Positions 1,869 to 19,227 are shown, counted from the first letter of the stretch. The stretch is 27,823 nucleotides of DNA from a virus (IMGVR_UViG_3300025144_000002:1-27823); one strand, 5' to 3'. Program-made: numbers and translations. The notes: a model not told the origin generated them from the sequence alone.

Positions 1869-1884
1869 GTTACATACGTGTTAC
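1869..1884 (+). promoter_or_regulatory. Operator-like element GTNAC-N6-GTNAC, site 1
   Basis: GTTACATACGTGTTAC. It follows a TATA-like TTTAATTAATT at 1854-1864 and precedes the ribosome site and ATG of the 196-residue gene at 1911. The two GTTAC pentamers start 11 bp apart, one helical turn. It is one of six elements of this pattern in the window. Confidence 0.65.
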
Positions 1885-1910
1885 CATTACACGTAAGGAG
1901 GTGATAAACA

Positions 1911-2501
1911 ATGAACGTGCATATACCAGAATTGGATACGTCTAATTTATACTCTCTGAAATTTCCAGCCGTGTCTATACAAGAATTTCCAGAGGAAGTT
2001 AACGGATTTTGTCATTCTGCTGTTACCATTGGAACAAAATCTTTTTTCTCCGAATCTGAACAGAATGAAATAAAAGACAAGATTTTATCGAAATATTCAC
2101 CAGAGGCCAGAACCATTCTTAAGGCGACCTTTTTCATTCGTATGGACGAAAAGAGAATATCGATTAAACGTCTTCGAAGGATTGCGTTGGAGTCGGGGCT
2201 ACCACCTATTTACGCCCGTCGTTTTACCATCATACTCGGCAAACATGAAACAACATGGGGAAAGGTAAAGGGTCGGGCTTATGTCCTTTTGTCAGTCGAT
2301 GGTAAGTCTGTTCTCTCGCCTCTAAAAGACAATGGTAAAATATTTGGTTGGCGGCAGAACTTGTTGCCAAGTGAGATTGCCGAAATTCGGGATCTTGTGG
2401 TGGCTGTGGGGTTGACTTGTCTCAGTTGCCCTTATGCTTATAGACCTAGCAAGCCGATTCTCACATGTGTTCGTCCTCGAAAAATCTTGGAAAAGAAATG
2501 A
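1911..2501 (+). CDS. Hypothetical protein (196 aa), operator-controlled
   Basis: Soluble protein of unknown function. The start is well defined by AAGGAGGTGATAAACA before the ATG. The middle section (about residues 70-120) is rich in Arg and Lys and could be nucleic-acid binding. The C-terminal part holds CLSCPY and a later single Cys, not enough for a clear zinc site. It lies between replication genes and the early-looking miniprotein cluster, and its promoter carries the GTNAC-N6-GTNAC element, so it is probably an early or regulated gene. No domain recognised. Confidence 0.75.
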   Translation: MNVHIPELDTSNLYSLKFPAVSIQEFPEEVNGFCHSAVTIGTKSFFSESEQNEIKDKILSKYSPEARTILKATFFIRMDEKRISIKRLRRIALESGLPPIYARRFTIILGKHETTWGKVKGRAYVLLSVDGKSVLSPLKDNGKIFGWRQNLLPSEIAEIRDLVVAVGLTCLSCPYAYRPSKPILTCVRPRKILEKK

Positions 2502-2580
2502 AACTGAAGGCCGTTGAGGGTTCGAGGGCAAGACCGGGGTAGAACGATGAAATACCTTCATGCGTTTCTAACCGAGTTTC

Positions 2581-2607
2581 GTTAACGCCGTTAACGGTGT
2601 TACGCGG
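2581..2607. repeat. Three tandem 9-bp repeats (GTTAACGCC / GTTAACGGT / GTTACGCGG)
   Basis: Three consecutive 9-mers beginning GTTAA or GTTAC lie 56 bp before the small membrane protein gene at 2663. The first two contain the palindrome TTAACGCCGTTAA (2582-2594). Its exact reverse complement occurs at 1521-1533 near the end of the polymerase gene. This may be an operator array distinct from the 11-bp-spaced elements. Confidence 0.45.
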
Positions 2608-2662
2608 GTGAAACACTTATTAACAGGGTCTTCGTGGTGAAGTTTCAAGAGGTGAAGCGCAT

Positions 2663-2812
2663 ATGGCAGATATGGTTGGGGCTATTGTCGATTGGTGCGT
2701 GGAAGCGTTCAACGTATTCAAGCCTATTTTTATTCTATACGGTGCGTACCATTTGGGTCGTCTGCTCGTGAAGACGATTGTTGGCTCTGCGAAGCGTTTC
2801 GTGGAGCACTAA
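2663..2812 (+). CDS. Small membrane protein (49 aa)
   Basis: An AGAGGTGA ribosome site sits 8 bp before the ATG. The product has one hydrophobic segment, about residues 16-42 (FNVFKPIFILYGAYHLGRLL), followed by a basic end (KRFVEH). It is likely a single-pass inner-membrane protein. A T-rich stretch (2908-2927) downstream could end the transcript before the convergent minus genes. Function unknown. Confidence 0.6.
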   Translation: MADMVGAIVDWCVEAFNVFKPIFILYGAYHLGRLLVKTIVGSAKRFVEH

Positions 2813-2907
2813 AACGCGCCATCTCCCCAAAAATTGTTGGAACATTAGCGAATTCTAGGGGCGTCGGCCCGGAATTTGTCGTTTGAGTTTCCGCTTTTCT
2901 TTGGAAC

Positions 2908-2927
2908 TTTTTTCTAGGCATTTTTAG
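2908..2927 (+). terminator. T-rich stretch, possible archaeal terminator
   Basis: CTTTTTTCTAGGCATTTTTA follows the small membrane protein gene and faces the end of the minus-strand pair. Archaeal termination often needs only T-runs. No strong stem was seen. Confidence 0.35.
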
Positions 2928-3157
2928 ATGCATGGGTGTAGGGAACGTGGTTGTCTTGGACAGTCCTTACAATGAACGACTTCAACAGTCTTGCCGCGAA
3001 TTTGGCATGGAGGACAGCGGTAATATTCGAGGAATTCTGTGGAGTATATTCGCTTGAAGATTCGGGGGATTTCGTAAATTAAGTGGAAAAATTGTTGAGA
3101 ACCATAGTACGCAGCATATGGGAATTCCGCTGCATGTTCCTCGTCGTATGTGGTCAA
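2924..3157 (-). CDS. Cys-rich zinc-binding-like miniprotein (77 aa)
   Basis: The TTG start overlaps the TGA stop of the upstream minus gene as TTGA, which supports both genes. The N-terminal two thirds are aromatic and charged. The C terminus has CPPC, then CKDC, then a last Cys (about residues 48-76), a probable four-Cys zinc site. It is the second gene of a two-gene unit transcribed away from the plus miniprotein operon. No family recognised. Confidence 0.6.
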   Translation of the reverse strand: MTTYDEEHAAEFPYAAYYGSQQFFHLIYEIPRIFKRIYSTEFLEYYRCPPCQIRGKTVEVVHCKDCPRQPRSLHPCI

Positions 3158-3450
3158 ATATTCTGAGTTTCCAGAGTAATATTTCGAGATTTATTTTGGC
3201 TGGACTCGACGGAATTTTCGGGCGGGTTCAGTTTTCGCGGTGTGATTTTTTCTATTCGATGATTTACAATGTGAGTGAAAGTATTCGATATATAAGCGAG
3301 GGACTTTGATTTTTTCTGTTTCAGTTTGCATGATGGACAGAGATGGTCGATTGTCCATGGCCATAGGGGTCTGGTGCATTTTTCGCAAAATCGCCCTAGT
3401 TCGGTCATTCTAGGTAATTGTCCTCTATGTGTTCGATAGAGAAAACTCAA
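3154..3450 (-). CDS. Zinc-ribbon-like miniprotein (98 aa, start uncertain)
   Basis: It contains CEKC and CPSC about 18 residues apart, followed by a Lys-rich segment and a hydrophilic tail, which suggests a zinc-stabilised nucleic-acid or protein binder. I chose the TTG at 3450 because AAGGA sits 7 bp upstream; the alternative ATG at 3408 gives 84 residues but a poorer ribosome site. A TATA-like CTATAAATG on the minus strand (3534-3526) and operator site 2 lie upstream, making a divergent promoter region with the gene at 3609. Confidence 0.6.
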   Translation of the reverse strand: MSFLYRTHRGQLPRMTELGRFCEKCTRPLWPWTIDHLCPSCKLKQKKSKSLAYISNTFTHIVNHRIEKITPRKLNPPENSVESSQNKSRNITLETQNI

Positions 3451-3506
3451 GGGTAATTCCTTGCACACATTTTTGTATTGACATCTTCATAGGTAGGATA
3501 TGCTTA

Positions 3507-3522
3507 GTTACATTGGCGTTAC
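3507..3522 (-). promoter_or_regulatory. Operator-like element GTNAC-N6-GTNAC, site 2 (divergent promoter)
   Basis: GTTACATTGGCGTTAC. For the minus gene it lies about 4 bp downstream of the TATA-like box at 3534-3526. It matches site 3 at 15 of 17 positions when the preceding A is included. An extra single GTTAC lies at 3534-3538. Confidence 0.65.
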
Positions 3523-3567
3523 TGACATTTATAGTTACTGTTTTCGCCTTGTTCGAAAAGAATAATA

Positions 3568-3583
3568 GTTACACTAGCGTTAC
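3568..3583 (+). promoter_or_regulatory. Operator-like element GTNAC-N6-GTNAC, site 3 (plus miniprotein operon)
   Basis: GTTACACTAGCGTTAC. It sits 25 bp before the first miniprotein start at 3609 and directly after an AT-rich segment (3556-3567) that could act as a TATA box. It is 61 bp from site 2, in the same orientation. Confidence 0.65.
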
Positions 3584-3608
3584 GGTTGTTCGTTCATGGT
3601 GTGTGAGC

Positions 3609-3776
3609 ATGAGCGAAGAAAAGAATGTTTGGATTTGGTGCGGTCATGCTAAGATGGGTTTAGCATTGGTCGCAAACCGTGGTAAGAGACTTTGGAGAAT
3701 GTTGGACAACTCCGAGACGACCGAGCACAAGAAAATCATGCGCAAATTCGGAGCGAGACGGAGACGGACAAAATGA
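3609..3776 (+). CDS. Basic miniprotein (55 aa), first gene of the miniprotein operon
   Basis: A short basic protein ending in an Arg-rich run (GARRRRTK). A longer frame from a GTG at 3429 exists, but it would run through the operator region, so the ATG at 3609 is preferred. Its stop overlaps the next start as ATGA. No domain recognised. The basic tail hints at nucleic-acid or membrane-surface binding. Confidence 0.6.
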   Translation: MSEEKNVWIWCGHAKMGLALVANRGKRLWRMLDNSETTEHKKIMRKFGARRRRTK

Positions 3777-3865
3777 CTTCTATTGATTCTCTCTTGTTGG
3801 CTGTGGGCTTGGTGACTCCGTTTCTGATCTTCGTAGGGATCGGAATTTGGAGACTGACAAGATGA
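3773..3865 (+). CDS. Tiny single-helix membrane protein (30 aa)
   Basis: ATGA overlaps join it to both neighbours, which is the main support for such a short gene. Residues about 5-26 are almost wholly hydrophobic (LLLAVGLVTPFLIFVGIGIW), followed by RLTR, as in a single-pass membrane peptide with a cytoplasmic C terminus. Confidence 0.55.
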   Translation: MTSIDSLLLAVGLVTPFLIFVGIGIWRLTR

Positions 3866-4053
3866 AATTCATTCTTGAGATTGACGACAAGGAACTAAAG
3901 GAATGGTGTCGGAACGAGATTAGAAAAAATCCGTCGTGTGCGAACGGTTGGGTTTCAATTCTCGTGGCTAATGCGCTCTTTGACTTCTTGGGTATTCTCG
4001 TGGATGTTTCGGTAGACGGGCCGGATAGGATAATCGGAGTAATGGCAGAATGA
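3862..4053 (+). CDS. Hypothetical miniprotein (63 aa)
   Basis: Starts in an ATGA overlap and ends in another. The N-terminal half is charged (EIDDKELKEW); the C-terminal half is hydrophobic with alternating small residues and looks like a small alpha/beta fold. Two isolated Cys do not make a zinc site. Unknown function. Confidence 0.6.
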   Translation: MKFILEIDDKELKEWCRNEIRKNPSCANGWVSILVANALFDFLGILVDVSVDGPDRIIGVMAE

Positions 4054-4316
4054 GCGAGAAACTTGTTTCGGTTGTTCGACGTGAGAAACAGATGCCGAGA
4101 TGGGAAAAATCGGTAAAGTCCTCGATGGGCGAATGTCCAAAATGCGGGCAAGAGACGATTCGAGACGTGTCAGATCAGGATGGGTATTTCGTCAAGGTTT
4201 GCATCAATGAGATTTGCGATTTTCTATCAACCGGATTCATGCCTGAGAAAAAGAATCCCAGAAAACGCGAACGATTCAGACACATTCCGCACACGAAGAC
4301 GATTGTGGTTCGGTGA
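4050..4316 (+). CDS. Zinc-ribbon miniprotein (88 aa)
   Basis: A classical zinc ribbon: CPKCG near residue 29, then a second knuckle CINEIC about 20 residues later, with beta-like sequence (GYFVKV) between. The N and C termini are Lys/Arg-rich. This fold commonly binds nucleic acid or transcription proteins; the role here is inferred. It follows the 63-residue gene with an ATGA overlap. Confidence 0.65.
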   Translation: MSEKLVSVVRREKQMPRWEKSVKSSMGECPKCGQETIRDVSDQDGYFVKVCINEICDFLSTGFMPEKKNPRKRERFRHIPHTKTIVVR

Positions 4317-4320
4317 TTGT

Positions 4321-4581
4321 ATGGCAGGAATGATTGCTAGATTTTATGCATACTTAGATCAATTTGGCGTTGAAGACACGGTACAGGTTTCGGAGATTAT
4401 TTCCCCTACCGCAAATAGCTCGGGGCAAGTTTGGTTTTTTGGTAGTAGTCAAAGATTCTCGGAGCTAGACTTAGACAAAATTGTTCGGGATTTCTTTGGA
4501 TCTAGGTATAGGGCGCATTTTCATTCTCGTGCTCCGTTTGGTAACGTGGATACAATCCCAAGGTTCGGTTATTCAAAATGA
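4321..4581 (+). CDS. Hypothetical protein (86 aa)
   Basis: GGTGATTGT directly before the ATG gives the start; a longer frame from 4180 overlaps the previous gene and is less likely. The product looks soluble, with an aromatic, mixed alpha/beta composition. It ends with an ATGA overlap into the next tiny gene. No family recognised. Confidence 0.55.
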   Translation: MAGMIARFYAYLDQFGVEDTVQVSEIISPTANSSGQVWFFGSSQRFSELDLDKIVRDFFGSRYRAHFHSRAPFGNVDTIPRFGYSK

Positions 4582-4676
4582 TCGATCAGGCGATTGTTTG
4601 GTTTTGTGTGTTTGGTGTTCCGATTCTTTTGCTGACTCTGTTTGGTGTTGTCGTGTTGTGGGGGGTTTCGCATTGA
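4578..4676 (+). CDS. Tiny single-helix membrane protein (32 aa)
   Basis: Linked by ATGA upstream and TTGA downstream. After MIDQA the sequence is continuously hydrophobic (VWFCVFGVPILLLTLFGVVV), as expected for one membrane helix. It resembles the 30-residue gene at 3773 in architecture but not in sequence. Confidence 0.55.
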   Translation: MIDQAIVWFCVFGVPILLLTLFGVVVLWGVSH

Positions 4677-4897
4677 GTCTTTGGGAACCTTCGTATTCTG
4701 ATATGGTTTGGCTTTCAAATCTAGTTAAGCGTATGGCGATTGACGGTCTTTGGTGTCTGCCAGACACAGGTTTGGTTTTCCAGAAAATCTCTGATACTAT
4801 GTTAGCGCTCGTGAATAATCCGGACACGGATGAGGCGTTTGAGTGTTGTGCTCGGACTGTTGCGGTCGGTCTGATTGCGGGGATTCTTGTTGTTTAG
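4673..4897 (+). CDS. Hypothetical protein with C-terminal hydrophobic segment (74 aa)
   Basis: The TTG start overlaps the previous stop as TTGA. The first 55 residues look helical and soluble; the last about 17 (TVAVGLIAGILVV) are hydrophobic and could anchor it in the membrane. No family recognised. Confidence 0.55.
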   Translation: MSLWEPSYSDMVWLSNLVKRMAIDGLWCLPDTGLVFQKISDTMLALVNNPDTDEAFECCARTVAVGLIAGILVV

Positions 4898-4909
4898 AGG
4901 TATGAGAAA

Positions 4910-5035
4910 ATGAAGTGCCCAAAATGTGGAGCTGACTTAGAGCTTCGCGATCATAACAATTGGACAATGGCTGTATGCCCGAATAGGGACTATGTCAGAA
5001 CGTTTCGAGGAAATATAAAGAGGTATCAAAAATGA
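4910..5035 (+). CDS. Zinc-ribbon miniprotein (41 aa)
   Basis: It begins MKCPKCGADL, a typical N-terminal zinc knuckle, with one further Cys (AVCPN) about 18 residues on, so the second knuckle is incomplete. GAGG lies upstream. The stop overlaps the next start as ATGA. Confidence 0.55.
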   Translation: MKCPKCGADLELRDHNNWTMAVCPNRDYVRTFRGNIKRYQK

Positions 5036-5169
5036 ATGAAAACGAAAATGGGAAGGACGGGGAAAATACGACCGAGACGGGTTTCTCGGACGGCCAGATT
5101 ATTGAGATTTGGCCGGGGGTTCGTTATCGGAAAATAGGTTCCGCAATCGTGAGGTTATGGGAACCTTGA
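5032..5169 (+). CDS. Acidic-to-mixed miniprotein (45 aa)
   Basis: Starts in an ATGA overlap and ends in a TTGA overlap. The N-terminal 20 residues are hydrophilic and Asn/Glu-rich; the rest (QIIEIWPGVRYRKIGSAIV) looks like beta strands. No family recognised. Support is mainly the overlap architecture. Confidence 0.45.
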   Translation: MNENENGKDGENTTETGFSDGQIIEIWPGVRYRKIGSAIVRLWEP

Positions 5170-5408
5170 CGATGGAATATCGACGTTTGGGGGGAACAGC
5201 AGAAAAAATCGAGACGCTTGAGGTGCGGAGTATTCCACAATCTCAGTTAACGTCTGAGTGTTGGGATGTTCAGTTTCGGGGTTTTCGTGCATGTGAGCGA
5301 TGTGAATACAAAGGGAAAAAGAACTGCGGGGGGAAGAACATACGGAAGACCGGAAAGAATTCTCTGGGGTTTTCGGTTCCGTTAGGAAGGGATCTGAATG
5401 TTCACTAG
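5166..5408 (+). CDS. Cys-rich miniprotein (80 aa)
   Basis: TTG start in a TTGA overlap (ATG at 5172 is an alternative). It contains a Cys, then CERC and a further Cys in a Lys/Gly-rich region (about residues 35-57), consistent with a small metal-binding site. It overlaps the next gene by 11 bp. Confidence 0.5.
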   Translation: MTMEYRRLGGTAEKIETLEVRSIPQSQLTSECWDVQFRGFRACERCEYKGKKNCGGKNIRKTGKNSLGFSVPLGRDLNVH

Positions 5409-5598
5409 GCAACACTACAAGGCAATAGCAGCGCTTTTGAGTGCTGTACCTAAACATTCTATCCCTAGTCTTTACGGTGAAAACCCCGATATTATGGTTT
5501 ACATGCCCGATCTAGTGAAGGCGTTTGAGGGGTTGTTTTCTGACGATAATTGGCGATTTGACTCGGATAAGTTTCGATCTGCCATTGGAGCGAGTTAG
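5398..5598 (+). CDS. Conserved small phage-type protein (66 aa)
   Basis: It matches a pattern I know from many tailed phages: HYxAIAxxL near the start, then a helix with DLxxxFE, then DNxRFDxxKFxxA at the end. These are small soluble helical proteins of unknown role, usually in early or accessory clusters. The start is fixed by GGAAGGGAT before the ATG. Confidence 0.65.
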   Translation: MFTRQHYKAIAALLSAVPKHSIPSLYGENPDIMVYMPDLVKAFEGLFSDDNWRFDSDKFRSAIGAS

Positions 5599-5599
5599 A

Positions 5600-5908
5600 T
5601 TGTTCAGTCTTGATTTAACGTTCTATGCGGAATGGTATCACAAACATGTTTCTCCGAATCTTTCACGAGAGCAAAAAGAGGCCTTGATACATAAAATCTC
5701 GGATTTGTCTTTAGAGAATCCTATTCACATTCCAGCCCTTGAATTCAACAAAGAGCAATTTCCTGAATTGGCTCCGTTCATGCATACTGAGAAACTTAGC
5801 GGCCGTCAATTATATGCTGTGTTCTGTGAGCTTTTCGAAGAATTACGACCGGAGCAAGCGAAGATTCTAGGTAAACCTTACATGACTTTTCCAAAGAAGG
5901 GGATCTAA
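5600..5908 (+). CDS. Hypothetical helical protein (102 aa)
   Basis: The frame is open further upstream; the TTG at 5600 is chosen because GGAG lies 9 bp before it and it directly follows the previous stop. The product is helical and moderately acidic with no Cys cluster. The next gene starts immediately after its stop. No family recognised. Confidence 0.55.
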   Translation: MFSLDLTFYAEWYHKHVSPNLSREQKEALIHKISDLSLENPIHIPALEFNKEQFPELAPFMHTEKLSGRQLYAVFCELFEELRPEQAKILGKPYMTFPKKGI

Positions 5909-6157
5909 ATGATGTCTCTTAGGATGATTCATTGCGCCATTGAAACACCAGACGGTCTTATTCACGTTCAAAACTACGTTATGGGATTGAGAGGACAGCA
6001 TCACGTTCACACTAAGGACGGTTTCAAGGCTTGGCTAAAGATTGCAAACCTTCACAAAAGAGACGTTTCGATTCAAAAAGGATCTTGTGACTGTGGATTG
6101 ACTCCTAGTGAAGTTAAGGAATATGACGGCAGAAAATGGAAAAGTGACAAGTTTTGA
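5909..6157 (+). CDS. Hypothetical protein (82 aa)
   Basis: AAGGGGAT precedes the ATG, which directly follows the previous stop. The protein has several His (QHHVHTKDG) and a late CDC pair, so weak metal binding is possible. Predicted alpha/beta. It ends in a TTGA overlap. Confidence 0.6.
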   Translation: MMSLRMIHCAIETPDGLIHVQNYVMGLRGQHHVHTKDGFKAWLKIANLHKRDVSIQKGSCDCGLTPSEVKEYDGRKWKSDKF

Positions 6158-6315
6158 CATTGAAGAAACATAAGATAGTATCGGTTTTTGACTTAGCTAC
6201 TCTGCAACCCGATGGAGAAATTTGTTGCCCCAACTGTGGATCTTGGACATACATAGATGACTTGACAGATGAAGAGTTTGAGGTTTCAAAATGTCCTATG
6301 TGCAAGAGGGATTAG
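6154..6315 (+). CDS. Zinc-ribbon miniprotein (53 aa)
   Basis: TTG start in a TTGA overlap. It has a near-ideal zinc ribbon: CCPNCG at about residues 28-33 and CPMC near the C terminus, with beta-like sequence between. It is one of the clearest ribbons in the cluster. Confidence 0.6.
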   Translation: MTLKKHKIVSVFDLATLQPDGEICCPNCGSWTYIDDLTDEEFEVSKCPMCKRD

Positions 6316-6316
6316 A

Positions 6317-6514
6317 ATGAGTTATCCAACAATCTATTTGTTGACTCCTTTACGTGGGATTTGTCGAACGTGGTTGATGCGTAATGTTTCGTCTGACTCA
6401 TCTTGGTTTGGTAAGGCGCTCGTGGTTGAACATGGGTATATCGAGGGGCTTGTCGAGACTATGCGAAGGGAAGGTTTCAGAGACGGAATTGATTTTGAGG
6501 TAGTGTCGGGTTGA
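6317..6514 (+). CDS. Hypothetical protein (65 aa)
   Basis: AGAGGG lies before the ATG. The product looks like a small alpha/beta protein with a C-terminal charged helix (GLVETMRREGF) and beta strand. It ends in a TTGA overlap. No family recognised. Confidence 0.55.
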   Translation: MSYPTIYLLTPLRGICRTWLMRNVSSDSSWFGKALVVEHGYIEGLVETMRREGFRDGIDFEVVSG

Positions 6515-6645
6515 AGAAACTAATCGAGTGTTCATTGTGCGGCAAACGAATAGACTTAGAGAAATTTCAAGAACATAGACTAGGTGAAATGGGTGACTTC
6601 GCAGTTGACGATTTGAAACGAACGATTAGGGTCTTGGATCTATGA
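6511..6645 (+). CDS. Miniprotein with one CxxC knuckle (44 aa)
   Basis: TTG start in a TTGA overlap. A CSLCGKRI knuckle near the N terminus is followed by a helix; there is a His (EHR) but no second CxxC. Ends in an ATGA overlap. The overlaps are the main evidence. Confidence 0.5.
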   Translation: MKKLIECSLCGKRIDLEKFQEHRLGEMGDFAVDDLKRTIRVLDL

Positions 6646-6722
6646 TTTGTCTAGTCTGTCATTCGAAGAATCATAGGACTAGAGAAACTTGTGTTAAGTG
6701 TGGTCATAGACTGACTTGTTGA
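6642..6722 (+). CDS. Minimal zinc-knuckle peptide (26 aa), last gene of the plus miniprotein operon
   Basis: It starts in an ATGA overlap and holds CLVC and CVKCG 13 residues apart plus a terminal Cys, a complete four-Cys site in a 26-residue peptide. Very short, so it could be a chance frame, but the overlap and Cys spacing argue for a real gene. Confidence 0.45.
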   Translation: MICLVCHSKNHRTRETCVKCGHRLTC

Positions 6723-7077
6723 ATCGTTCTATTCTAGGCCTTGGTTATCACTTTTTGTTTAACCTTTCTTCTACCTGATTTTTTATATCGTTCTTTAGTT
6801 GTCCACCTTTTCACTTTGTACCGGTAGGTCTTGCCTTTTACGTGTTGCTCGATTATCTGTGTCCACATTCAGTTATCACCACATGACATGATTAAGAGGG
6901 AAGGGGCTTTACACGCGCGGGGCAAATCAAATCACCAAGTTTGGTAGAAGAATTTGAGTTAACCTAGCTTCAAGATTCTCCTTTTGTGCTCAGGTGTCTA
7001 TCCGGCTCTCGATTGTTAGGCATTATGCGACCTTTCGAAGGCCGTTACCACTCTTAACCGTCTAGGGAAAATTCGGT
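6723..7077. other. Convergent intergenic region without a recognised gene
   Basis: It lies between the ends of the plus miniprotein operon and the minus portal operon. It has plus-strand T-rich stretches at about 6750-6758 and 6779-6786 that may terminate the plus transcript. There is a short palindrome ACCAA-GT-TTGGT near 6936-6947 and a CCTT-TCG-AAGG hairpin near 7030-7040. No tRNA, no frame above about 20 residues worth calling and no operator element were seen. Confidence 0.6.
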
Positions 7078-7311
7078 TCACTTGTAGAAGCACTCTGAAC
7101 AGACTTTGCATCCGTTGAAACCCATTTCGATCCAAGTTCTTTCTATTGCTGCGCCCGTGAAGTTTTCGAATCCCACTTTCGGTTTGCCGTCTCCAATTAT
7201 TCCATCTTCTTTTGGATTCCATGAACCGCCGCAAATATCGCATTGGTACTGATGAAACAAAACCCGTCGAATGAATTTCCAGATCCGTGATAGTATTCCG
7301 TTTCGAGTCAT
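7078..7311 (-). CDS. Zinc-binding miniprotein (77 aa), last gene of the portal operon
   Basis: An N-terminal basic helix (RIWKFIRRV) is followed by CDICGG and, about 43 residues later, CKVCSEC, forming a probable treble-clef or ribbon zinc site. The ATG overlaps the previous stop as ATGA. Confidence 0.65.
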   Translation of the reverse strand: MTRNGILSRIWKFIRRVLFHQYQCDICGGSWNPKEDGIIGDGKPKVGFENFTGAAIERTWIEMGFNGCKVCSECFYK

Positions 7312-7439
7312 GGTTCTTCAACTCTCCTGCTTTCTCTGTTGAAACACGTTCGGCACAATCTCCAATTTCCGAATGGTGTGAGATCTCTTGTGAGACACTC
7401 GCATGAGGAACAGCGTCCTTTGGGAAGTTTCTTTTTCAT
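7308..7439 (-). CDS. Zinc-knuckle miniprotein (43 aa)
   Basis: ATGA overlaps at both ends. It contains CSSCEC and CRTC about 16 residues apart in a strongly basic peptide. The Cys spacing fits one zinc ion and the charge suggests nucleic-acid binding. Confidence 0.6.
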   Translation of the reverse strand: MKKKLPKGRCSSCECLTRDLTPFGNWRLCRTCFNRESRRVEEP

Positions 7440-7603
7440 TCTTTTAACAACTCCGCGCATTCATGCATGATTCGTGATATGTCGTCTGCTCGTAGTCGTG
7501 TTAGGGTTCGTATGATTTTGTCTGCGATTCGTTTGGATTCGGTGTCTCCATAACCTTTCCAGACTTTCCCCGAACTACCCCTTTCTTCCACATGAAAGGC
7601 CAT
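7436..7603 (-). CDS. Hypothetical helical miniprotein (55 aa)
   Basis: GGTGA, which includes the upstream stop codon, precedes the ATG. The product has a long amphipathic helix (residues about 22-54, KRIADKIIRTLTRL). A longer frame to 7753 overlaps the membrane gene upstream and is not favoured. Confidence 0.6.
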   Translation of the reverse strand: MAFHVEERGSSGKVWKGYGDTESKRIADKIIRTLTRLRADDISRIMHECAELLKE

Positions 7604-7611
7604 TTTCTTTG

Positions 7612-7815
7612 TCACCGTAACAGATAGACAAGAATTAAACTCCCCCACGTTAACAAGACAAGACCGAAGAAAAGGAAGACCGAGTCTTGGGCGTCCGAGA
7701 TCCACTGGACTAAATCGTGGTATATATCCCGTATCGCCCAATAAAATACCCAACCTATTCCGACAACGATAAAAGAGATGATAAGGAGGAGGATGGAACG
7801 CGCCCAGAGGCTCAT
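7612..7815 (-). CDS. Two-helix membrane protein (67 aa)
   Basis: ATG in an ATGA overlap with a GGAAG ribosome site. There are two hydrophobic helices (about residues 7-27, ILLLIISFIVVGIGWVFYWA, and 45-66, VFLFFGLVLLTWGSLILVYL) joined by an acidic loop. Holin-sized, but a holin role is only a possibility. Confidence 0.6.
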   Translation of the reverse strand: MSLWARSILLLIISFIVVGIGWVFYWAIRDIYHDLVQWISDAQDSVFLFFGLVLLTWGSLILVYLLR

Positions 7816-7991
7816 TTCTTTTCTTCCTTCTTCAATTTCTTTCGGCAGGTTCCGCAATTGTCTGGGCTGTTGTCTTTTCCTTGTTCCAATTCTCCGAAAT
7901 ACATCCATCTTCCGCAGAGGGATCGTCCGTTTCTGAAGTAGTGGGCGACTCTCGACGCGAGGGGCCATCCCCAACCTTCTTTGTTGTTCAA
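7812..7991 (-). CDS. Basic Cys-containing miniprotein (59 aa)
   Basis: The TTG start overlaps the previous stop as TTGA, with GGTGAG 5 bp upstream. One Cys at about residue 26 and CGTC near residue 46 could bind metal. The end is Lys/Glu-rich, and the stop overlaps the next ATG. Confidence 0.55.
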   Translation of the reverse strand: MNNKEGWGWPLASRVAHYFRNGRSLCGRWMYFGELEQGKDNSPDNCGTCRKKLKKEEKK

Positions 7992-8212
7992 TATCTCACC
8001 ACGCAGGTGGAATGAATGTAGACTGTTGTGCTGTCCTGTTTGTAGTATTCCTGTCCGTCTTCGATTGGTTTGTCACAAATGAAACATAGGACTTGAAGGC
8101 GTTGGAGGCATTTGAGGGCGTATTTGTTTTTGCGGCCAACTCGTTTGTTTTTCATGTGTCCGAGGATGCATTGTCTTCGCCAATGGGTCATTGTTTTCAT
8201 CTTGGAACTCAA
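7988..8212 (-). CDS. Zinc-finger-like basic miniprotein (74 aa)
   Basis: TTG start in a TTGA overlap (the ATG five codons in is an alternative). The N-terminal half is highly basic. The C-terminal half has CFIC and, 25 residues on, HSTC, a CxxC...HxxC arrangement as in LIM-like or treble-clef fingers. Probable DNA or RNA binder by inference. Confidence 0.6.
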   Translation of the reverse strand: MSSKMKTMTHWRRQCILGHMKNKRVGRKNKYALKCLQRLQVLCFICDKPIEDGQEYYKQDSTTVYIHSTCVVRY

Positions 8213-9057
8213 ACCAAATCAATCCCTACGAGTTTCTTTCGAGTTGTGACTCGTCTTCCAAATTTTTTCGCCATGATCTCTTCAGGTGTAGCCGTTGTGA
8301 ACCAACAGGCATAGTGGAGGAAGAAGGCGATTGCACATGCTTCGACGGATGCGGTTATGTCGAACTCGGAGTCTTCAGGTGTGTTGTAGAACATGAGGGA
8401 CTGTCCATGTTTCTGAACGTCTTCGTTTTCTCCGACTTCCCATTTTAGAGCGCAGATGAGGACGATGAGAAAGATTGCGATCCATTTAGTTTTGATTCTG
8501 TATCCGGTGTCAAAGACCATGAGGGGTAGAGCGATAAGGAGGTTGGCGCATTTATGAGCGACGTATGAGTAGGCGTTGTTTGGGATTCTGATCGTTTTCC
8601 CTTCGACGATAATATCCATCGTATACCAATTCAGATTTGCTCCGACACCGATTATTGCGAGACAGAAAACCATGATCGGGATGGTGGCAAATAAGAACGG
8701 CGCAGGCGCATTGATTGGTTTTCTTCCGCCGAGCACGTTCTTCCAAGATCGCTTGAAAAAGGGGCCGCCTTGCGCGAAATAGAGGACAACCGCAATCGTG
8801 GTGACGAACGGAACTAGAGCAGGTTGAATTCCCCAGTTGAGAGGGATCAAGGATTCTGGGTGCTCTGAGAGGTAAGACCAAAACTCATCGTAATGCTTGA
8901 GGGCGGGTTGTCCATAAAAATTTGTAGGAGAAAGAGTTAGCCGCCATGCAATGAAATAACAGGCGGCGATTAGGATCAAAAGGAGGAGGGTGATTCGCCT
9001 AGCCCACTTCAACGATTTGGTGATTCGTTGAAGGAACCAAAGCGTCCTGCGGATCAT
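8209..9057 (-). CDS. Multi-pass membrane protein (282 aa)
   Basis: About six hydrophobic segments are visible (near residues 22-42, 80-97, 120-140, 165-187, 192-210 and 238-255), with a soluble loop after the first. No transporter or enzyme motif recognised. It sits in the portal operon after a 120-residue gene and ends in a TTGA overlap with a zinc-finger gene. Candidates include a membrane partner of the subtilase or a superinfection/exit factor; none can be shown here. Confidence 0.7.
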   Translation of the reverse strand: MIRRTLWFLQRITKSLKWARRITLLLLILIAACYFIAWRLTLSPTNFYGQPALKHYDEFWSYLSEHPESLIPLNWGIQPALVPFVTTIAVVLYFAQGGPFFKRSWKNVLGGRKPINAPAPFLFATIPIMVFCLAIIGVGANLNWYTMDIIVEGKTIRIPNNAYSYVAHKCANLLIALPLMVFDTGYRIKTKWIAIFLIVLICALKWEVGENEDVQKHGQSLMFYNTPEDSEFDITASVEACAIAFFLHYACWFTTATPEEIMAKKFGRRVTTRKKLVGIDLV

Positions 9058-9060
9058 TTC

Positions 9061-9423
9061 TCAGACGCTTCGTTCTGGACTTGGTTTTCCACATATTGGA
9101 TATTCAATCATCCAAAGCATGGGAACGTTTTTTGCTACCATTACTTCGATCATAAGAAGATCTATACGAGCGAGTGCTATGGCGACTGATCGAAGATCGT
9201 CGAACATTCTGAGTAGTTCTGTTTCGGTGAGGATGGAGAAGCAGCGGCCGGATAGACTTCTCCACGATTCGGCTCTTCTTCCTATGTAATCAAGTGTTTC
9301 CGTAATCGAAGCGTAAGTTTCAAGGTCGGTTTTTGGTTTCAGTGTTTCATACAATGCTATTTGGTCTGTGACGGCTTTTTTGTATTGAGTGATTTGTTCT
9401 TGTAGTTGTTTCTCGGAGATCAT
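9061..9423 (-). CDS. Hypothetical helical protein (120 aa)
   Basis: ATG at 9423 chosen; an upstream extension would overlap the tiny membrane gene. The product is almost wholly helical, with coiled-coil-like heptads in the N-terminal half (QLQEQITQYKKAV). No Cys cluster or signal. It lies between a 31-residue membrane peptide and the six-helix membrane protein. Confidence 0.65.
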   Translation of the reverse strand: MISEKQLQEQITQYKKAVTDQIALYETLKPKTDLETYASITETLDYIGRRAESWRSLSGRCFSILTETELLRMFDDLRSVAIALARIDLLMIEVMVAKNVPMLWMIEYPICGKPSPERSV

Positions 9424-9431
9424 TGTTACTG

Positions 9432-9527
9432 TCAGCCCGGTTTGAGAACTATCCAAGAGGCTACTGTCAGTGAAACGGCGGCTGCAACGAGAATTATTGT
9501 TGCGATTGCGATATCTTCTTTGTTCAA
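9432..9527 (-). CDS. Tiny single-helix membrane peptide (31 aa)
   Basis: The TTG overlaps the subtilase TGA as TTGA. After LNKEDI there is one continuous hydrophobic helix (AIATIILVAAAVSLTVASWI). This fills the gap between two real genes and repeats the overlap style of the operon. Confidence 0.5.
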   Translation of the reverse strand: MNKEDIAIATIILVAAAVSLTVASWIVLKPG

Positions 9528-11212
9528 GTTAGGTCAACTTTGACGATTTCGATTCGGTTTCCAGCGAATGCCTTGCCATCGACTGTGATTTTGTAGGTTG
9601 TTTCTGGCTCTAAGGCAAAGCTGGCTTCGCCATCTTCATTTGGCGCTAGTGTTATGTCTACTTCTTTGGTTATGTGTTTAGGGGCTTCAGCTTTGACGTG
9701 ATGTGGTCCGGGTTCTAAGTCGTAGAATCGGTAGAATCCTTGGGGGTCGGTTGCTTTTGACGTTCCATCGACCGTGATGGTTCCTTGTATTGGTTTCATT
9801 GTTGGCTTGTCGTAGATCATGCCGTGGAGTCGAGCCTTCGGCTCGGGTTTCTCGCCATAGTGAATTGCCTTATGAGGTTGGACTAACCCCATGCCTTCGA
9901 GATGCGCACCTTCCGGTATTCCATATTGTTCCTTTCCTGCTGGAAACTCTTCCCAATTACCGAGTGGTTTCGCGGTTTTCATTAGGGCTTCCCTTACTTG
10001 GGTGTTGGTCCAAGTGTAGTGAACCTCCCACACTTGGCCGCAAACACTGACAACTTCCGGCGTGGCCATGCTCGTTCCGCTGTATTTGACATATCCATGT
10101 GTTCCTCCCATGTCGGGGATTTTGCAACTCGTGATGTTCCAACCATATCCGACGACGTGAGGGCGCATAACGCCTCGTTCGTCTTTGTGTCTCGGTCCGA
10201 GACTTGAGAAATAGCAGATTGCGTTGAAGTCTTCGCTGTTTGGATCTCCAACCACTGCTCCGACCGCCATGCATCCATCGCAACGAGCGGGACAGCTACA
10301 CGTCGCGTTTGCTTTCTCATAGCCGTCCAACGGTGGATATTGATGACCGGAGTTACCCATCGCTATGATGTTCATGTGTCCGCGAGCCCAGACTTTGTTG
10401 CCCATACTGCATAGCATACAGTCCCCATGACAGAAGTCTTGGTAGCCGCCTAGGCTGATGTTGAATATTCCTACTCTATGTCCATTGAAGGACGGGGCCT
10501 TTGGATCGACCGGCAAACCCTCTATGAATTCAACGCCTCTCTGCCATCCTTCAATGATTGTGAATGCGGTTCCGGTTCCGACTCTGGTTAGAACTTTGCA
10601 GAAGGCCATGGGCGCTTTGGGGCAGCCGCCCACATATTTGCCGTCGGAGGCTCGGCCATCTCCTGCAAATATTCCTGCGACATGTGTTATGTGTCCGTGG
10701 AGGTCTTTGGTGGTTCCTTCGCCAACAATGTCGAACTCAGCGAGGATTCTGTCTTTCAAATCCTTATGTTCGGGAGCGCCTGTGTCTAATCCGACCATTG
10801 GTATATGTTCGCCCTTCCATCCTTCTGCCCAGACTTTCGGCATGTCGATCAAAGGCATTGATACGTCGAGAAACGCGTGAACTTCGAAATCTACATTTGC
10901 GTCGTAAATCAATCCCTTTTGAAGACATAAGTCAATGACCTTCAGGATCATCTCTGACAACAATCCGTTGAACTTCGGTAAGGAGAGTTGTATGATGTTT
11001 CCTAACTTGCCTACGGAAGTTCTTCCTTCTGTGGTGAACGGTAGAATTTCTCTGATGAACTTCAGTAGTTGTGGGATAAAAGTTGCGGTGGGAATTTCAA
11101 CAATGAGAGTTATGGGTTCCAAGGGGACAGCGGCGAGTCCAAGGGCTTTTGCTTTTTCCTGTCGATTGATGAGTTCCTGTTCCAGTTGTTTTCTGAGAAT
11201 TTCCAAACCCAT
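9524..11212 (-). CDS. Subtilisin-like serine protease with C-terminal beta-sandwich domain
   Basis: Peptidase family S8. The full triad is present: D143 in VGLDTGAPEHKDL, H174 in HGHITHVAG, S381 in SGTSMATPE, with oxyanion Asn N287 in AMGNSG. The usual GHGTH is GHITH here. About 110 N-terminal residues could be a propeptide; no signal peptide is visible. Two Cys-rich segments (C261-C268 and C305-C314) are unusual and could be disulfides or metal ligands. Residues about 452-550 resemble the carboxypeptidase-regulatory/PEGA type of beta-sandwich, repeatedly seen on secreted or surface enzymes. AAGGTGA precedes the ATG. It lies two genes after the portal, so roles in head maturation, entry through a protein S-layer or exit are plausible; none is proven. 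Confidence 0.9.
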   Translation of the reverse strand: MGLEILRKQLEQELINRQEKAKALGLAAVPLEPITLIVEIPTATFIPQLLKFIREILPFTTEGRTSVGKLGNIIQLSLPKFNGLLSEMILKVIDLCLQKGLIYDANVDFEVHAFLDVSMPLIDMPKVWAEGWKGEHIPMVGLDTGAPEHKDLKDRILAEFDIVGEGTTKDLHGHITHVAGIFAGDGRASDGKYVGGCPKAPMAFCKVLTRVGTGTAFTIIEGWQRGVEFIEGLPVDPKAPSFNGHRVGIFNISLGGYQDFCHGDCMLCSMGNKVWARGHMNIIAMGNSGHQYPPLDGYEKANATCSCPARCDGCMAVGAVVGDPNSEDFNAICYFSSLGPRHKDERGVMRPHVVGYGWNITSCKIPDMGGTHGYVKYSGTSMATPEVVSVCGQVWEVHYTWTNTQVREALMKTAKPLGNWEEFPAGKEQYGIPEGAHLEGMGLVQPHKAIHYGEKPEPKARLHGMIYDKPTMKPIQGTITVDGTSKATDPQGFYRFYDLEPGPHHVKAEAPKHITKEVDITLAPNEDGEASFALEPETTYKITVDGKAFAGNRIEIVKVDLT

Positions 11213-11216
11213 TTTT

Positions 11217-11519
11217 TCACCTTCTGAAAACGGTTTCTATAAATTTCTCGACAATCACAATACTACCGAGTCCTGCGAACCAAGCGACCATTGGGTTATT
11301 GACTACGGGGAAGCCCGGAAACGTTGTTAGAATCACAGAAGATAGGCCGTAAGGTGTGAGCAACCCAAAGATTGCTCCGAGGATTACATTAAGCAGAAAT
11401 CCTAGATGAACAACGTTTTTCTGCCAGTATGGAAGCGCCACGTTGCCCTTTGAGTAGAAGATATGCCATGCGAAGCCTCCTAGTGCTCCCCAAATCATTA
11501 GGATTAGAATCTCATTCAA
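11217..11519 (-). CDS. Small membrane protein (100 aa) between portal and protease
   Basis: The TTG at 11519 overlaps the end of the portal gene by 8 bp and has GGAGA upstream; a longer frame would lie fully inside the portal gene. Three hydrophobic segments (about residues 3-20, 35-62, 74-93). Function unknown. Confidence 0.6.
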   Translation of the reverse strand: MNEILILMIWGALGGFAWHIFYSKGNVALPYWQKNVVHLGFLLNVILGAIFGLLTPYGLSSVILTTFPGFPVVNNPMVAWFAGLGSIVIVEKFIETVFRR

Positions 11520-12816
11520 TTTTGATCTTCTCCTTTTCTTGTTCTGTTGGAGCCGGTTGCGGTAGGGACTTTGGTGTTTCTGGAAGGGCTTCCTCCAGTT
11601 CAATTCCAGTGAGTTTGGCGAGGTTGTTCCGAAACTCTTCGAGGGTTATGCCGGGCGCGTATGGTGCTTTTTCTGGGCCGATTGGCTGTTGTGGGAAAAG
11701 TGCGTCCAGAAGATCTCTGATCCTTATGTCAAGTTTGTCTCGTGGTTTCCATGTTAGACGGGCTTCTACTTCCTTTGGGTCGTATTTCATTTGTTGTAGG
11801 ATGGGCCAGAAGATCTCGCGTTCTGTTTGTCGCTTGATTTGTCGTTGGAGGGCGGAGACTTTGCGATCTCCAAGGAGAAGGGCGATTCTTGCGGATGCCT
11901 CCGTGAAGCCGGGGCTTGTGAAAAGTCTACCCACTGGATTTTGGCATCCTTCAAAGAAGCGATTTTCAATGTAGTCTAGGAGCGGTTCGAAACCCCGTGA
12001 GACATTTAGCGGAACAGGCGTCGTTTCAACGGGAACTTCGGTTACAGCATCTTCAAGTCCGGTAAGTGCTTCCTGATGAGTTTTCGCCCAGTCTTTCGGG
12101 AATTTCTCGCCCGCCTTTGGACTGTAGAGGACTTTGAAGTGCGCCCACCGTTTCACGGCGTAAGGTAATTCGTTTTCTATTAGGGCCTTCATTTGGAGAA
12201 AGGGAGGAACCGTTATAGTTTCTTCTTTTCCGTCTTCGTAACGCAGCGTGAATTTCCGTGTTTCAATGAGAGGGCGAATAAGGCCGATTCCAAATCCGCC
12301 TTCTTCAGAACTGTCCATCCCCCAACGCCAGTGAACGACACCGGCGGGGTCGATCATTCTGTCTGCTTCTCCGGGGATCTGTTGAATGTAAAACCTTGGT
12401 TCTGCCGTCTTCTTGTCTCTGTAGATTCCTCTGATCGTGGTGAGGGGAATAATGTTGAGCATTTCAGTTTCGTTAGGTGTTCGTTTCCATGTGAAGCTCG
12501 ACCCGGCGTAAATCATTTGTAGAACGGATTCTTGATGAATACCGTCGAGGTTTACGTCTTCACAGAAACCTTCCAAGTTGTGTTTTGCTTCTGAATTCTT
12601 GGCGCGTAAGTAGAAACCCTGTCCGACAAGGGCATCTCGAAGATATTCGGCATGATAGCGAACAGTTGGGTCTTTGAGAAACCAATTTCGTGAGGTTTCA
12701 AAAGATACAGTGGGGAATTCGCCGACGAGCGTTTTTATTCCAGAAATAGCCGCAGGTTCTTCAGGGCGGTTTCTTAGGGCTTGCACAGCCCTTGAAATTC
12801 GAACTCGAAACGACAA
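11512..12816 (-). CDS. Phage portal protein (434 aa)
   Basis: The portal forms the dodecameric vertex ring through which DNA enters and leaves the head. Diagnostic stretches include LNIIPLTTIRGIYRD, then HWRWGMDSSEEGGFGIGLI (family pattern: H-x-R, then G-x-G-x-S/I-L at the stem), and a late helical clip/crown region followed by a Pro/Lys-rich tail. Length fits the family. The TTG start has no ribosome site but lies just after a TATA-like box (12858-12847) and operator site 4, which suggests a leaderless message. It is on the opposite strand to the capsid and tail genes and leads a 12-gene operon, which is unusual. Confidence 0.8.
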   Translation of the reverse strand: MSFRVRISRAVQALRNRPEEPAAISGIKTLVGEFPTVSFETSRNWFLKDPTVRYHAEYLRDALVGQGFYLRAKNSEAKHNLEGFCEDVNLDGIHQESVLQMIYAGSSFTWKRTPNETEMLNIIPLTTIRGIYRDKKTAEPRFYIQQIPGEADRMIDPAGVVHWRWGMDSSEEGGFGIGLIRPLIETRKFTLRYEDGKEETITVPPFLQMKALIENELPYAVKRWAHFKVLYSPKAGEKFPKDWAKTHQEALTGLEDAVTEVPVETTPVPLNVSRGFEPLLDYIENRFFEGCQNPVGRLFTSPGFTEASARIALLLGDRKVSALQRQIKRQTEREIFWPILQQMKYDPKEVEARLTWKPRDKLDIRIRDLLDALFPQQPIGPEKAPYAPGITLEEFRNNLAKLTGIELEEALPETPKSLPQPAPTEQEKEKIKIE

Positions 12817-12828
12817 GGCAATTCGAAA

Positions 12829-12844
12829 GTGACACGGGTGTTAC
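12829..12844 (-). promoter_or_regulatory. Operator-like element GTNAC-N6-GTNAC, site 4 (portal operon)
   Basis: GTGACACGGGTGTTAC on the plus strand (minus: GTAACACCCGTGTCAC). It lies 13 bp before the portal TTG and 2 bp after the TATA-like GTCTTTAAATTC (12858-12847, minus). A factor bound here would cover the transcription start. Confidence 0.65.
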
Positions 12845-13003
12845 AAGAATTTAAAGACTAAGTGCTGTTTTTGCGAATATACTCCAAAAGAACACTTTTA
12901 GTCTTGTCTCCGGGGTTCCAATTGGTTCTGTATGTTCTTAATAGGCGAAAAGGTCTTTTAATTGGACGGTCGCGCAAAGAAAAGGGGGATACGCAGGGTT
13001 GCG

Positions 13004-13177
13004 TTACGGCAATATTTTCATTCGGCGCAGAAATTCTCGTACAGCCTCATTGATGACTTGTGCATTTGTGAAGAGTCCCAAGTGCTCCGCTTCCTTTGTT
13101 TCTCGAAATTCCTTTACAGCATCAAGCAGACCCTTTGCAATTCGCACTACGTCACTATGTTCTTTCTTCTTTGGCAT
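13004..13177 (-). CDS. Ribbon-helix-helix transcription regulator (57 aa)
   Basis: AGGAGGGACAATC precedes the ATG at 13177. The layout is a basic N-terminal strand (KKKEHSDVVRI), a helix, then TNAQVINEAVREFLRR, the second helix of Arc/CopG-type proteins. Such dimers bind short palindromic half-sites, often as tandem pairs one turn apart, so this is a candidate binder of the GTNAC-N6-GTNAC element, one copy of which is in its own divergent promoter. Confidence 0.7.
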   Translation of the reverse strand: MPKKKEHSDVVRIAKGLLDAVKEFRETKEAEHLGLFTNAQVINEAVREFLRRMKILP

Positions 13178-13224
13178 GATTGTCCCTCCTTTTTCTGGTA
13201 ACATGGAAGATACCCATTGGCGAA

Positions 13225-13234
13225 GATATAAATA
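13225..13234. promoter_or_regulatory. Divergent TATA box of the regulatory hub
   Basis: GATATAAATA on the plus strand reads TATTTATATC on the minus strand, a good archaeal TATA box in both directions. It could serve the minus ribbon-helix-helix gene (start 13177) and the plus one (start 13273). Confidence 0.55.
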
Positions 13235-13244
13235 CTTCCCCTAT

Positions 13245-13260
13245 GTAACCTCAATGTAAC
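13245..13260. promoter_or_regulatory. Operator-like element GTNAC-N6-GTNAC, site 5 (regulatory hub)
   Basis: GTAACCTCAATGTAAC. It lies between the divergent TATA box and the plus ribbon-helix-helix start, and just upstream of the TATA box for the minus gene. One factor could therefore repress the plus gene and influence the minus one. Confidence 0.65.
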
Positions 13261-13272
13261 GGTGCAGATGAC

Positions 13273-13434
13273 TTGAGAACCGAAGTGACTAAGATTGACC
13301 CATCTCTTATTCCCTCAATTGATAAGGCCATCAGAGAAGTGAAAGATTCATTTGGTGTTTCTCTTTATGACAGTCGGACGGATGTTGTGAATGCTGCGGT
13401 AAGAGAGTTCCTTTTGAAGCACCACCATCCGTAG
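13273..13434 (+). CDS. Ribbon-helix-helix-like protein (53 aa)
   Basis: Divergent from the minus ribbon-helix-helix gene and similar in layout: a short polar N terminus with VTKIDPSLIPSIDKAI, a loop, then SRTDVVNAAVREFLLK, matching the second helix. TTG at 13273 is chosen (weak GGTG upstream); GTG at 13285 is an alternative. The stop is 10 bp before the winged-helix gene. Confidence 0.6.
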   Translation: MRTEVTKIDPSLIPSIDKAIREVKDSFGVSLYDSRTDVVNAAVREFLLKHHHP

Positions 13435-13444
13435 GTGGTTGTGG

Positions 13445-13714
13445 TTGGGTTCTGAGCGACATACGTTTGAAGTCATAATACGTCTCTTGGAGACTGTTCG
13501 TTCTGGAACTAATAATCCGTCCAGAATGATAATTGCAACAAAGATGAGCAACCGGCAGTTCTACCACCACATGCGTTTCTGTCTTGAAAAGAATTTGTTG
13601 GTTTTGGAGTCTTCTTCTTCCGGACGCAATCAGATACAAGTAAAAACCTACGGTTTGACGGAGAAAGGACAACTTCTCCTTCAAAGTGTTGAAAAACGCG
13701 TATATTCTCCTTAA
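13445..13714 (+). CDS. Archaeal-type winged-helix regulator (89 aa)
   Basis: A DNA-binding protein with helix FEVIIRLLETV, a recognition region (SRMIIATKMSNRQFYHHMRFCLEKNLL), a wing, and a YGLTEKGQLLLQ ending. This pattern is common in small archaeal regulators (Sso10a/HTH_45-like). The TTG at 13445 has AGGTGG 6 bp upstream; the earlier TTG at 13439 has no room for a ribosome site. It lies between the hub and the structural operon and probably controls the early/late choice. Confidence 0.7.
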   Translation: MGSERHTFEVIIRLLETVRSGTNNPSRMIIATKMSNRQFYHHMRFCLEKNLLVLESSSSGRNQIQVKTYGLTEKGQLLLQSVEKRVYSP

Positions 13715-13735
13715 GAATACTATCTCTTTTTAAGG
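13709..13735. repeat. Inverted repeat CCTTAA...TTAAGG
   Basis: Six-base arms with a 15-base spacer span the winged-helix stop and the TATA-like box of the structural operon. It could be a weak transcript end or an extra binding site. Confidence 0.3.
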
Positions 13736-13736
13736 T

Positions 13737-13752
13737 GTGACATCCGTGTAAC
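13737..13752 (+). promoter_or_regulatory. Operator-like element GTNAC-N6-GTNAC, site 6 (structural operon)
   Basis: GTGACATCCGTGTAAC. It follows the TATA-like TCTCTTTTTAAG (13723-13734) and ends 13 bp before the protease ATG at 13766, which has no ribosome site. This would be the main late promoter, and it carries the same element as the other modules. Confidence 0.65.
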
Positions 13753-13765
13753 TAACTCGGTTCAT

Positions 13766-15160: not shown

Positions 15161-15192
15161 CGCTCACAGATAGTTTAGTGAGGGATTGGTGG

Positions 15193-15221
15193 GACACCCG
15201 ACCTGCCTTAGTGTCGTCGGG
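15193..15221 (+). other. Two mutually exclusive hairpins in the capsid leader
   Basis: GACAC (15193-15197) can pair with GTGTC (15211-15215), or CCCGAC (15197-15202) with GTCGGG (15216-15221). They share bases, so only one forms. They lie in the 88-bp gap before the decoration gene and could stabilise or switch the message. Confidence 0.3.
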
Positions 15222-15248
15222 GCAACCCTGAAAAGGGGGAATTAAAAC

Positions 15249-15674
15249 ATGGCGACGGATTTTCTATCCAAGTTCGAGACTAACTCTCTTCCCGGCGGTC
15301 GTTTAGTTCAATGCAAGGCGTCAGGAGGTATTACCCTGAACGATGTGGTGCTGCTTGTTACTGCCGCTGAAGCCGACAAATTAGTTCCAGTTGTCAAAAC
15401 TTCGGATGACAACGATTCCACATTAGTCTATGGGGTTGCATATGAAACAAAGGCTGACGGCGAATATGTTCTCATCAAGAAGGGTGGATTAGCTAAGGTT
15501 AAGATCACTTGTTCGACTGTGGCGATAGCGGTAGGAGATGCGTTGGCATCCGACAACGGTGGGGGAGCTAAAGAGGCGGCATCTGCAAGTGCGGTGTTGA
15601 CACATCTTGGTAAGGCACTTCAGGCTTCAACGGTGCAGAACGACGAGATTCTCATTGACATGGATATGCCATAG
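15249..15674 (+). CDS. Capsid decoration/cement protein (DUF2190-like)
   Basis: 141 residues, almost all beta and small residues: GGRLVQCKASGGITLNDVVLL, a central GVAYETK, then IAVGDALASDNGG. This is the typical pattern of DUF2190-like phage proteins that coat and stabilise the head. It is placed as expected, between prohead protease and major capsid protein. AAGGGGGA precedes the ATG. Confidence 0.7.
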   Translation: MATDFLSKFETNSLPGGRLVQCKASGGITLNDVVLLVTAAEADKLVPVVKTSDDNDSTLVYGVAYETKADGEYVLIKKGGLAKVKITCSTVAIAVGDALASDNGGGAKEAASASAVLTHLGKALQASTVQNDEILIDMDMP

Positions 15675-15684
15675 GTGATTGAAT

Positions 15685-16692: not shown

Positions 16693-16731
16693 ATCGTCCT
16701 CCTCCTTTCTTTCTTTGGAGGCGGATGAAAC

Positions 16732-16890: not shown

Positions 16891-16943
16891 CTTCCCCCTT
16901 TTTGTGGGTTCAGTTTCCGATTCACGTTTCAGGAGGTGATTGG

Positions 16944-17237: not shown

Positions 17238-17249
17238 GGAGACACAGTA

Positions 17250-18128: not shown

Positions 18129-18189
18129 GTCCTCGTGAGAACGACACCCCTTATATTCTTTTTTGCTGCACCTGTTTCGCAGATGTAAT

Positions 18190-18781: not shown

Positions 18782-18797
18782 AAATCCAACCGCAAGG

Positions 18798-19223: not shown

Positions 19224-19227
19224 TTTT

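Follow-up and report, generated by a model that had tools for sequence, protein, structure and literature searches.

Which protein reads a 16-bp element that stands ahead of several operons of one virus, and what would it control there? The element, GTNAC-N6-GTNAC, consists of two palindromic pentamers, and it occurs in a 27,823-base stretch of viral DNA (IMGVR_UViG_3300025144_000002:1-27823), hereafter the window, which was analysed over its full length. A preliminary description had placed six copies at positions 1869, 3507, 3568, 12829, 13245 and 13737, where all were recovered, and had proposed that a single factor controls the whole viral programme through them. The answer favoured here, with a probability of about three in four, is that the operators are docking sites of two small regulators of the virus itself, RHH1 and RHH2, putative ribbon-helix-helix (RHH) proteins that would control their own genes as well as other operons. 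The virus is a tailed archaeal virus, probably with a host among the Bathyarchaeia, an assignment based on the family-B DNA polymerase (PolB) and on provirus similarity to contigs of metagenome-assembled genomes (MAGs), possibly including misbinned virus.

Copies, spacing and placement of the operators

Dinucleotide shuffles of the window gave 0.28 +/- 0.57 copies of the motif (the chance figure put forward earlier was about 0.4), and none of 100 shuffles attained the six copies observed. The window holds 78 GTNAC pentamers; six pairs of them lie 11 bp apart and any other distance up to 60 bp is found at most twice, which bears out the exact spacing first described. Among all 16 palindromic pentamers of the form XYNY'X' combined with spacings of 5-40, GTNAC at 11 bp reaches the highest count (six), and the reversed control pattern is absent (0 versus 6). 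The G at position 10, said to be present in most copies, and the A at position 6, said to be common to all, are each found in five of the six.

All six exact operators are intergenic, as had been claimed. With 9.7% of the window non-coding according to a manual gene list, the probability of such a placement is about 8e-7, provided that for 3507 and 3568 the gene starts at 3609 and not with the longer mechanical open reading frame (ORF) 3429-3776. A position weight matrix added two well-scoring intergenic near-sites with one mismatch each, a possible weak operator at 2599..2614 (GTTACGCGGGTGAAAC) and a near-match at 13198..13213; the remaining one-mismatch matches fall in coding sequence (2011, 6087, 16271 and 17062). 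The data support a genuine operator family at promoters, over or beside the expected transcription starts.

When the six exact operators and the near-match at 13198 were oriented toward their downstream genes, a TATA-like octamer (7-8 of 8 positions) was found 2-11 bp 5' of five of the seven sites, namely 1869, 12829 (-), 13245, 13198 (-) and 13737. An equally high score within 20 bp occurs at 4.2% of random positions. The earlier statement that most copies lie directly downstream of a TATA-like box holds for these five sites and not for 3507, which has no close box, or for 3568, whose box is weak. In archaea the distance from TATA box to transcription start is usually about 25 bp, so that the operators would cover the stretch between the box and the predicted start.

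Operator 1 (GTTACATACGTGTTAC, 1869..1884) lies 7 bp 3' of TTTAATTA and 26 nt ahead of the ATG at 1911. Operator 2 (GTTACATTGGCGTTAC, 3507..3522) is located 61 bp 5' of operator 3 (GTTACACTAGCGTTAC, 3568..3583), both upstream of the ORF with ATG 3609 and neither with a strong TATA box. Operator 4 (GTGACACGGGTGTTAC, 12829..12844) is found between TTTAAATT and the start of its expected target, a portal-like gene on the - strand (11512..12816; weak PHROG match). Operator 5 (GTAACCTCAATGTAAC, 13245..13260), 10 bp 3' of TATAAATA, precedes RHH2 (+), and across the same TATA region from it is the near-match at 13198, 20 nt ahead of the ATG of RHH1 (-). Operator 6 (GTGACATCCGTGTAAC, 13737..13752) is 2 bp 3' of TTTTTAAG and 13 nt ahead of the ATG at 13766, where the capsid operon begins. 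The first gene of this operon (13766..15160, +) has a homologue in the provirus G074, and the major capsid protein (15679..16692, +) has a weak PHROG match while its G074 homologue matches PF05065. The promoters with operators are those of the portal-like gene (12829), the RHH pair (13245, 13198), the capsid operon (13737) and two left-side operons. Among the major modules named in the preliminary description, the capsid/cement operon 3' of 13737 is better supported in its identity than the 'portal' at 11512-12816.

The divergent RHH1/RHH2 pair

Between the portal-like and capsid operons, two divergent genes encode the candidate operator-binding regulators, RHH1 (57 aa; 13004..13177, -) and its paralogue RHH2 (49 aa; 13285..13434, +; GTG start, TTG 13273 possible), and operator 13245 and near-site 13198 flank their shared TATA region. 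The paralogy was given 97.2% probability by HHalign profile comparison. Both sequences follow the pattern (T)VRIP-helix-G-x(n)-helix, and AlphaFold2 (AF2) monomer models have helices where expected for RHH (pLDDT 88-90), without the strand. RHH dimers are two-fold symmetric and recognise short palindromes, and binding is cooperative when two of them share one face of the DNA. Short palindromic half-sites repeated every ~10-12 bp in the own promoter are a feature of RHH regulators that is seen here in the GTNAC pairs upstream of RHH genes, which are spaced 11 bp, or 10 bp in the case of G242. Precedents for this spacing are provided by ParR of R1, which requires two 11-bp repeats, ParR of pB171, which binds 10-bp repeats (PMC9426499), and YefM with its TGTACA palindromes spaced 12 bp (PMC4803016).

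In the proposed mechanism, a single RHH dimer would recognise each palindromic GTNAC pentamer; with the pentamer centres 11 bp, or one helical turn, apart, two dimers would sit side by side on the same face of the helix. Bound between TATA box and start, they would block RNA polymerase and thus lead to repression. RHH1 and RHH2 may in this way regulate their own divergent promoters via 13245 and 13198, and may also repress the portal-like operon (12829), the capsid operon (13737) and the left-side operons (1869; 3507/3568). From the arrangement of sites and genes we infer operator binding by RHH1/RHH2, repression rather than activation, a division of labour between the paralogues and a regulated stage of infection. 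It is possible, more as a tentative idea than as an expectation, that the divergent paralogues compete for one operator set and form a two-regulator switch between dormancy and virion production; that such a switch in tailed Bathyarchaeia viruses would be an archaeal counterpart of CI/Cro, built from RHH proteins, is likewise a speculative proposal.

Conservation in relatives

Besides the window, two virus contigs (L041, L174) and two MAGs of the Bathyarchaeia class (G074, G001:C35) have divergent RHH1/RHH2 pairs, and an exact operator lies between the divergent genes in four of the five pairs, the window included. L041 came to light, along with many unrelated matches, when IMG/VR was scanned for operator pairs within 25-55 bp. 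In this virus, homologues of both RHH proteins stand on either side of three overlapping or adjacent operators, and the operator pattern occurs three times and the reversed control not at all. The alignment of the four RHH proteins of the window and L041 was used to find the Bathyarchaeota MAG contig L128 (= G001:C35), which holds a divergent RHH pair of the same kind. The provirus G074, fetched by protein, carries the operator GTTACATGTTTGTTAC between divergent RHH1 and RHH2. It also encodes homologues of three window proteins, the portal-like one (30%, E 6e-32), the product of 13766 (E 1e-27) and the capsid protein. Finally, L174 was fetched by protein similarity alone, with the RHH2 alignment as query, and its operator was predicted before the sequence was inspected; GTTACAATATTGTAAC was observed between the divergent genes, 14 bp ahead of the RHH1 start. 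L174 is fairly close to L041, with neighbouring genes in common, so that the two are not fully independent.

Further sites accompany other RHH genes. In G035, an exact site lies 35 bp 5' of an RHH start, and in G001:C65, whose PolB is 56.6% identical to that of the window over 479 aa, an exact operator lies 82 bp from an RHH2 homologue that has a degenerate 11-bp array upstream. The operator thus recurs at RHH genes in L041, G074, L174, G035 and G001:C65, a conservation in relatives to which the preliminary description had attached weight. Hidden Markov model (HMM) searches for RHH genes covered 257 genomes of the MAG's class. When the 200-bp upstream regions of 12 RHH genes found in this way were pooled, GTNAC ranked first in enrichment among 256 gapped pentamers, with 31 occurrences versus ~6 expected (5.3-fold, p = 7e-12, a value that is somewhat optimistic because the set includes related genes). 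A search with RHH2 in 398 genomes of the phylum gave weak additional matches only, none with a creditable operator. Relatives of the window were looked for with PolB, capsid, tape measure and 13766 proteins among viral contigs and with capsid among genome contigs, and none was found; the same holds for a phage DNA search with 13700-23700 and for phage protein searches with capsid, portal-like, PolB, baseplate and 13766 proteins.

RHH1 homologues at L041:2752-3189, L137:1276-1683 (-), L138:118-534 and L174:5443-5865 (-) have a conserved C-terminal domain with the motif HFNVYEDHV...C..C....CDH, absent from the window RHH1. In G001:C35 (L128:9045-9827, -), the RHH2 homologue is fused to a C-terminal domain that resembles, as judged by eye, a MEDS/DcmR-type sensor, which suggests a ligand- or signal-responsive version.

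Several points weigh against RHH1 and RHH2 as readers of the operators. Both proteins fall below the Pfam cut-offs, with sub-threshold matches to RHH_1, RHH_3, VapB_antitoxin, RHH_8 and 56B_RHH, and Foldseek comparison of the monomer models with solved RHH proteins was non-significant (E 6-9, TM ~0.55; the matches listed include ParD2, PrpA, E73 and SvtR, and RHH proteins make up four of the eight RHH1 matches), so that the fold call draws mainly on the sequence pattern and family comparison. PDB searches with the single RHH1 and RHH2 sequences gave no match, and a profile search no meaningful one. The binding itself is predicted here from sequence. As for the relatives, the palindromic half-sites at the divergent G001:C35 pair are GTSAC and differently spaced, those of G242 are 10 bp apart, and more than 300 bp separate the G037 site from the closest RHH start; the 11-bp rule is therefore not universal. 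Moreover, the exact operator is found only at or near RHH genes in G074, L041, L174 and G001:C65, so that control of the structural operons is deduced from the sites of the window. The earlier proposal of one factor acting virus-wide stands as regards the operator family, for which the RHH pair is added here as the likely binder, and is not matched in these relatives; control of the 'whole programme' can only be presumed, as many genes are without a dedicated site and the window is a fragment.

Other possible binders

Another candidate is encoded at 13439..13714 (+), between operators 13245 and 13737. This winged-helix protein exceeds the cut-off for PF14947 (HTH_45), and helix-turn-helix (HTH) dimers are also compatible with an 11-bp dyad, each pentamer taking one of the two recognition helices at a distance of one turn; RHH1 and RHH2 would then act elsewhere. 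Such a role is improbable, as tblastn of the window genes against the operator-carrying L041, G074, G001 and L174 loci revealed no HTH_45 homologue. An HTH dimer also leaves the inner symmetry of each single pentamer unexplained, and for this reason RHH proteins fit the anatomy of the sites better. The RHH1/RHH2 pair, and not the HTH_45 protein, is judged the likely binder from its genes and their sites.

The motif is identical to the GlnR box described for Streptomyces venezuelae, GTnAC-n6-GTnAC (PMC10704036), and the virus might thus recruit a host archaeal regulator comparable to the OmpR-type GlnR/AfsQ1 of actinomycetes. This is still less probable than the HTH_45 protein: in four related MAGs of the host class the motif is not above the reversed control (42 versus 61), and the missing genome-wide excess argues against a host factor, the sites being clustered instead at viral RHH genes. 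In the same way, no response-regulator or OmpR-type domain was detected among the window proteins scanned, which did not include every small ORF. Least probable of all is a function of the operators as partition or replication iterons, like those bound by RHH-type ParR at plasmid centromeres. The need of R1 ParR for two 11-bp repeats, the GTNAC arrays of 11-bp period in many unrelated IMG/VR contigs and the ParB-like protein encoded by L041 would agree with it, but the window sites are isolated pairs spread over 12 kb at TATA boxes and not arrays, and ParM was not found. Since GTNAC-N6-GTNAC is shared with the GlnR box and with tandem arrays of unrelated viruses, the motif without an RHH pair is not diagnostic.

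Comparison with known systems

An archaeal viral repressor of the F55/SvtR/AvtR kind would be expected to have operators that overlap the TATA box, B recognition element (BRE) or start, in its own and other viral promoters, and here five of the seven sites lie by a TATA-like box. F55, SvtR and AvtR are precedents for archaeal viral RHH proteins acting in this manner. F55, the repressor of the Sulfolobus spindle-shaped virus SSV1, is a small RHH protein encoded by a virus, and its repeated sites overlap the starts and BRE of several viral promoters, its own included (PMC5569661). It differs from the present case in its ATAGATAG tandem repeats, its single RHH gene, and its virus family and host. 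The footprint of AvtR of AFV6 (gp29/gp30 region) covers the stretch between its own promoter and the promoter of another predicted RHH gene, an arrangement that is similar here, yet AvtR has two fused RHH motifs and recognises ATnnTnnTAnnACnTT. SvtR of the rod-shaped virus SIRV1 represses its own promoter and a structural gene, as is proposed here, through a different operator ~80 nt from the TATA box; its similarity to the RHH2 model is weak (TM 0.57, non-significant). ParR/parC of R1 and pB171 share with the window and G242 the 11-bp and 10-bp repeats, respectively, but these are centromere arrays for partition beside parM and not paired sites at dispersed promoters. The GlnR/AfsQ1 regulators share the consensus and are OmpR-type winged-helix proteins from another domain of life, and the likeness is taken as convergence.

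A text search of two published accounts of Bathyarchaeia (pro)viruses retrieved no RHH regulators; promoters are unmentioned in one of them, and operators and repressors in the other. Transcription control in tailed viruses of Bathyarchaeia thus appears unstudied. The window offers a concrete candidate regulator-operator pair with a small putative regulon, conserved between virus contigs and a provirus, and a proposed code for protein-DNA recognition, with a single RHH dimer on each GTNAC and 11-bp phasing, that is open to testing. Together, operator and RHH pair can guide the search for proviruses in an archaeal class of which few members are in culture. The case also shows that a motif can come to match a bacterial GlnR box exactly without common origin.

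Further observations

Tandem GTNACNNNNNN arrays with an exact 11-bp period, possibly iterons or centromeres, occur in unrelated viral contigs (L076:9964-10292, L019:1429-1750, L047:8054-8365, L069:4403-4496, L095:1357-1450 and L101:6155-6237). Inspection by eye of the ORFs beside these and other arrays showed no evident RHH or ParM, and the arrays were set aside as a different phenomenon. In a Bathyarchaeota MAG, two GTTACAATAT(G/T)GTAAC sites are found 36 bp apart (G001:C37:8566-8617).

Adjoining the portal-like gene, 9524-11212 (-) encodes a subtilase with a CarboxypepD_reg domain, whose matches among phages include the distant Methanofastidiosa virus vir520 (L008), which has only the subtilase in common with the window. 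At the left end, 1-1558 encodes a truncated family-B DNA polymerase (DNA_pol_B_2) with a C-terminal HTH, a relative of which is present on G001:C65.

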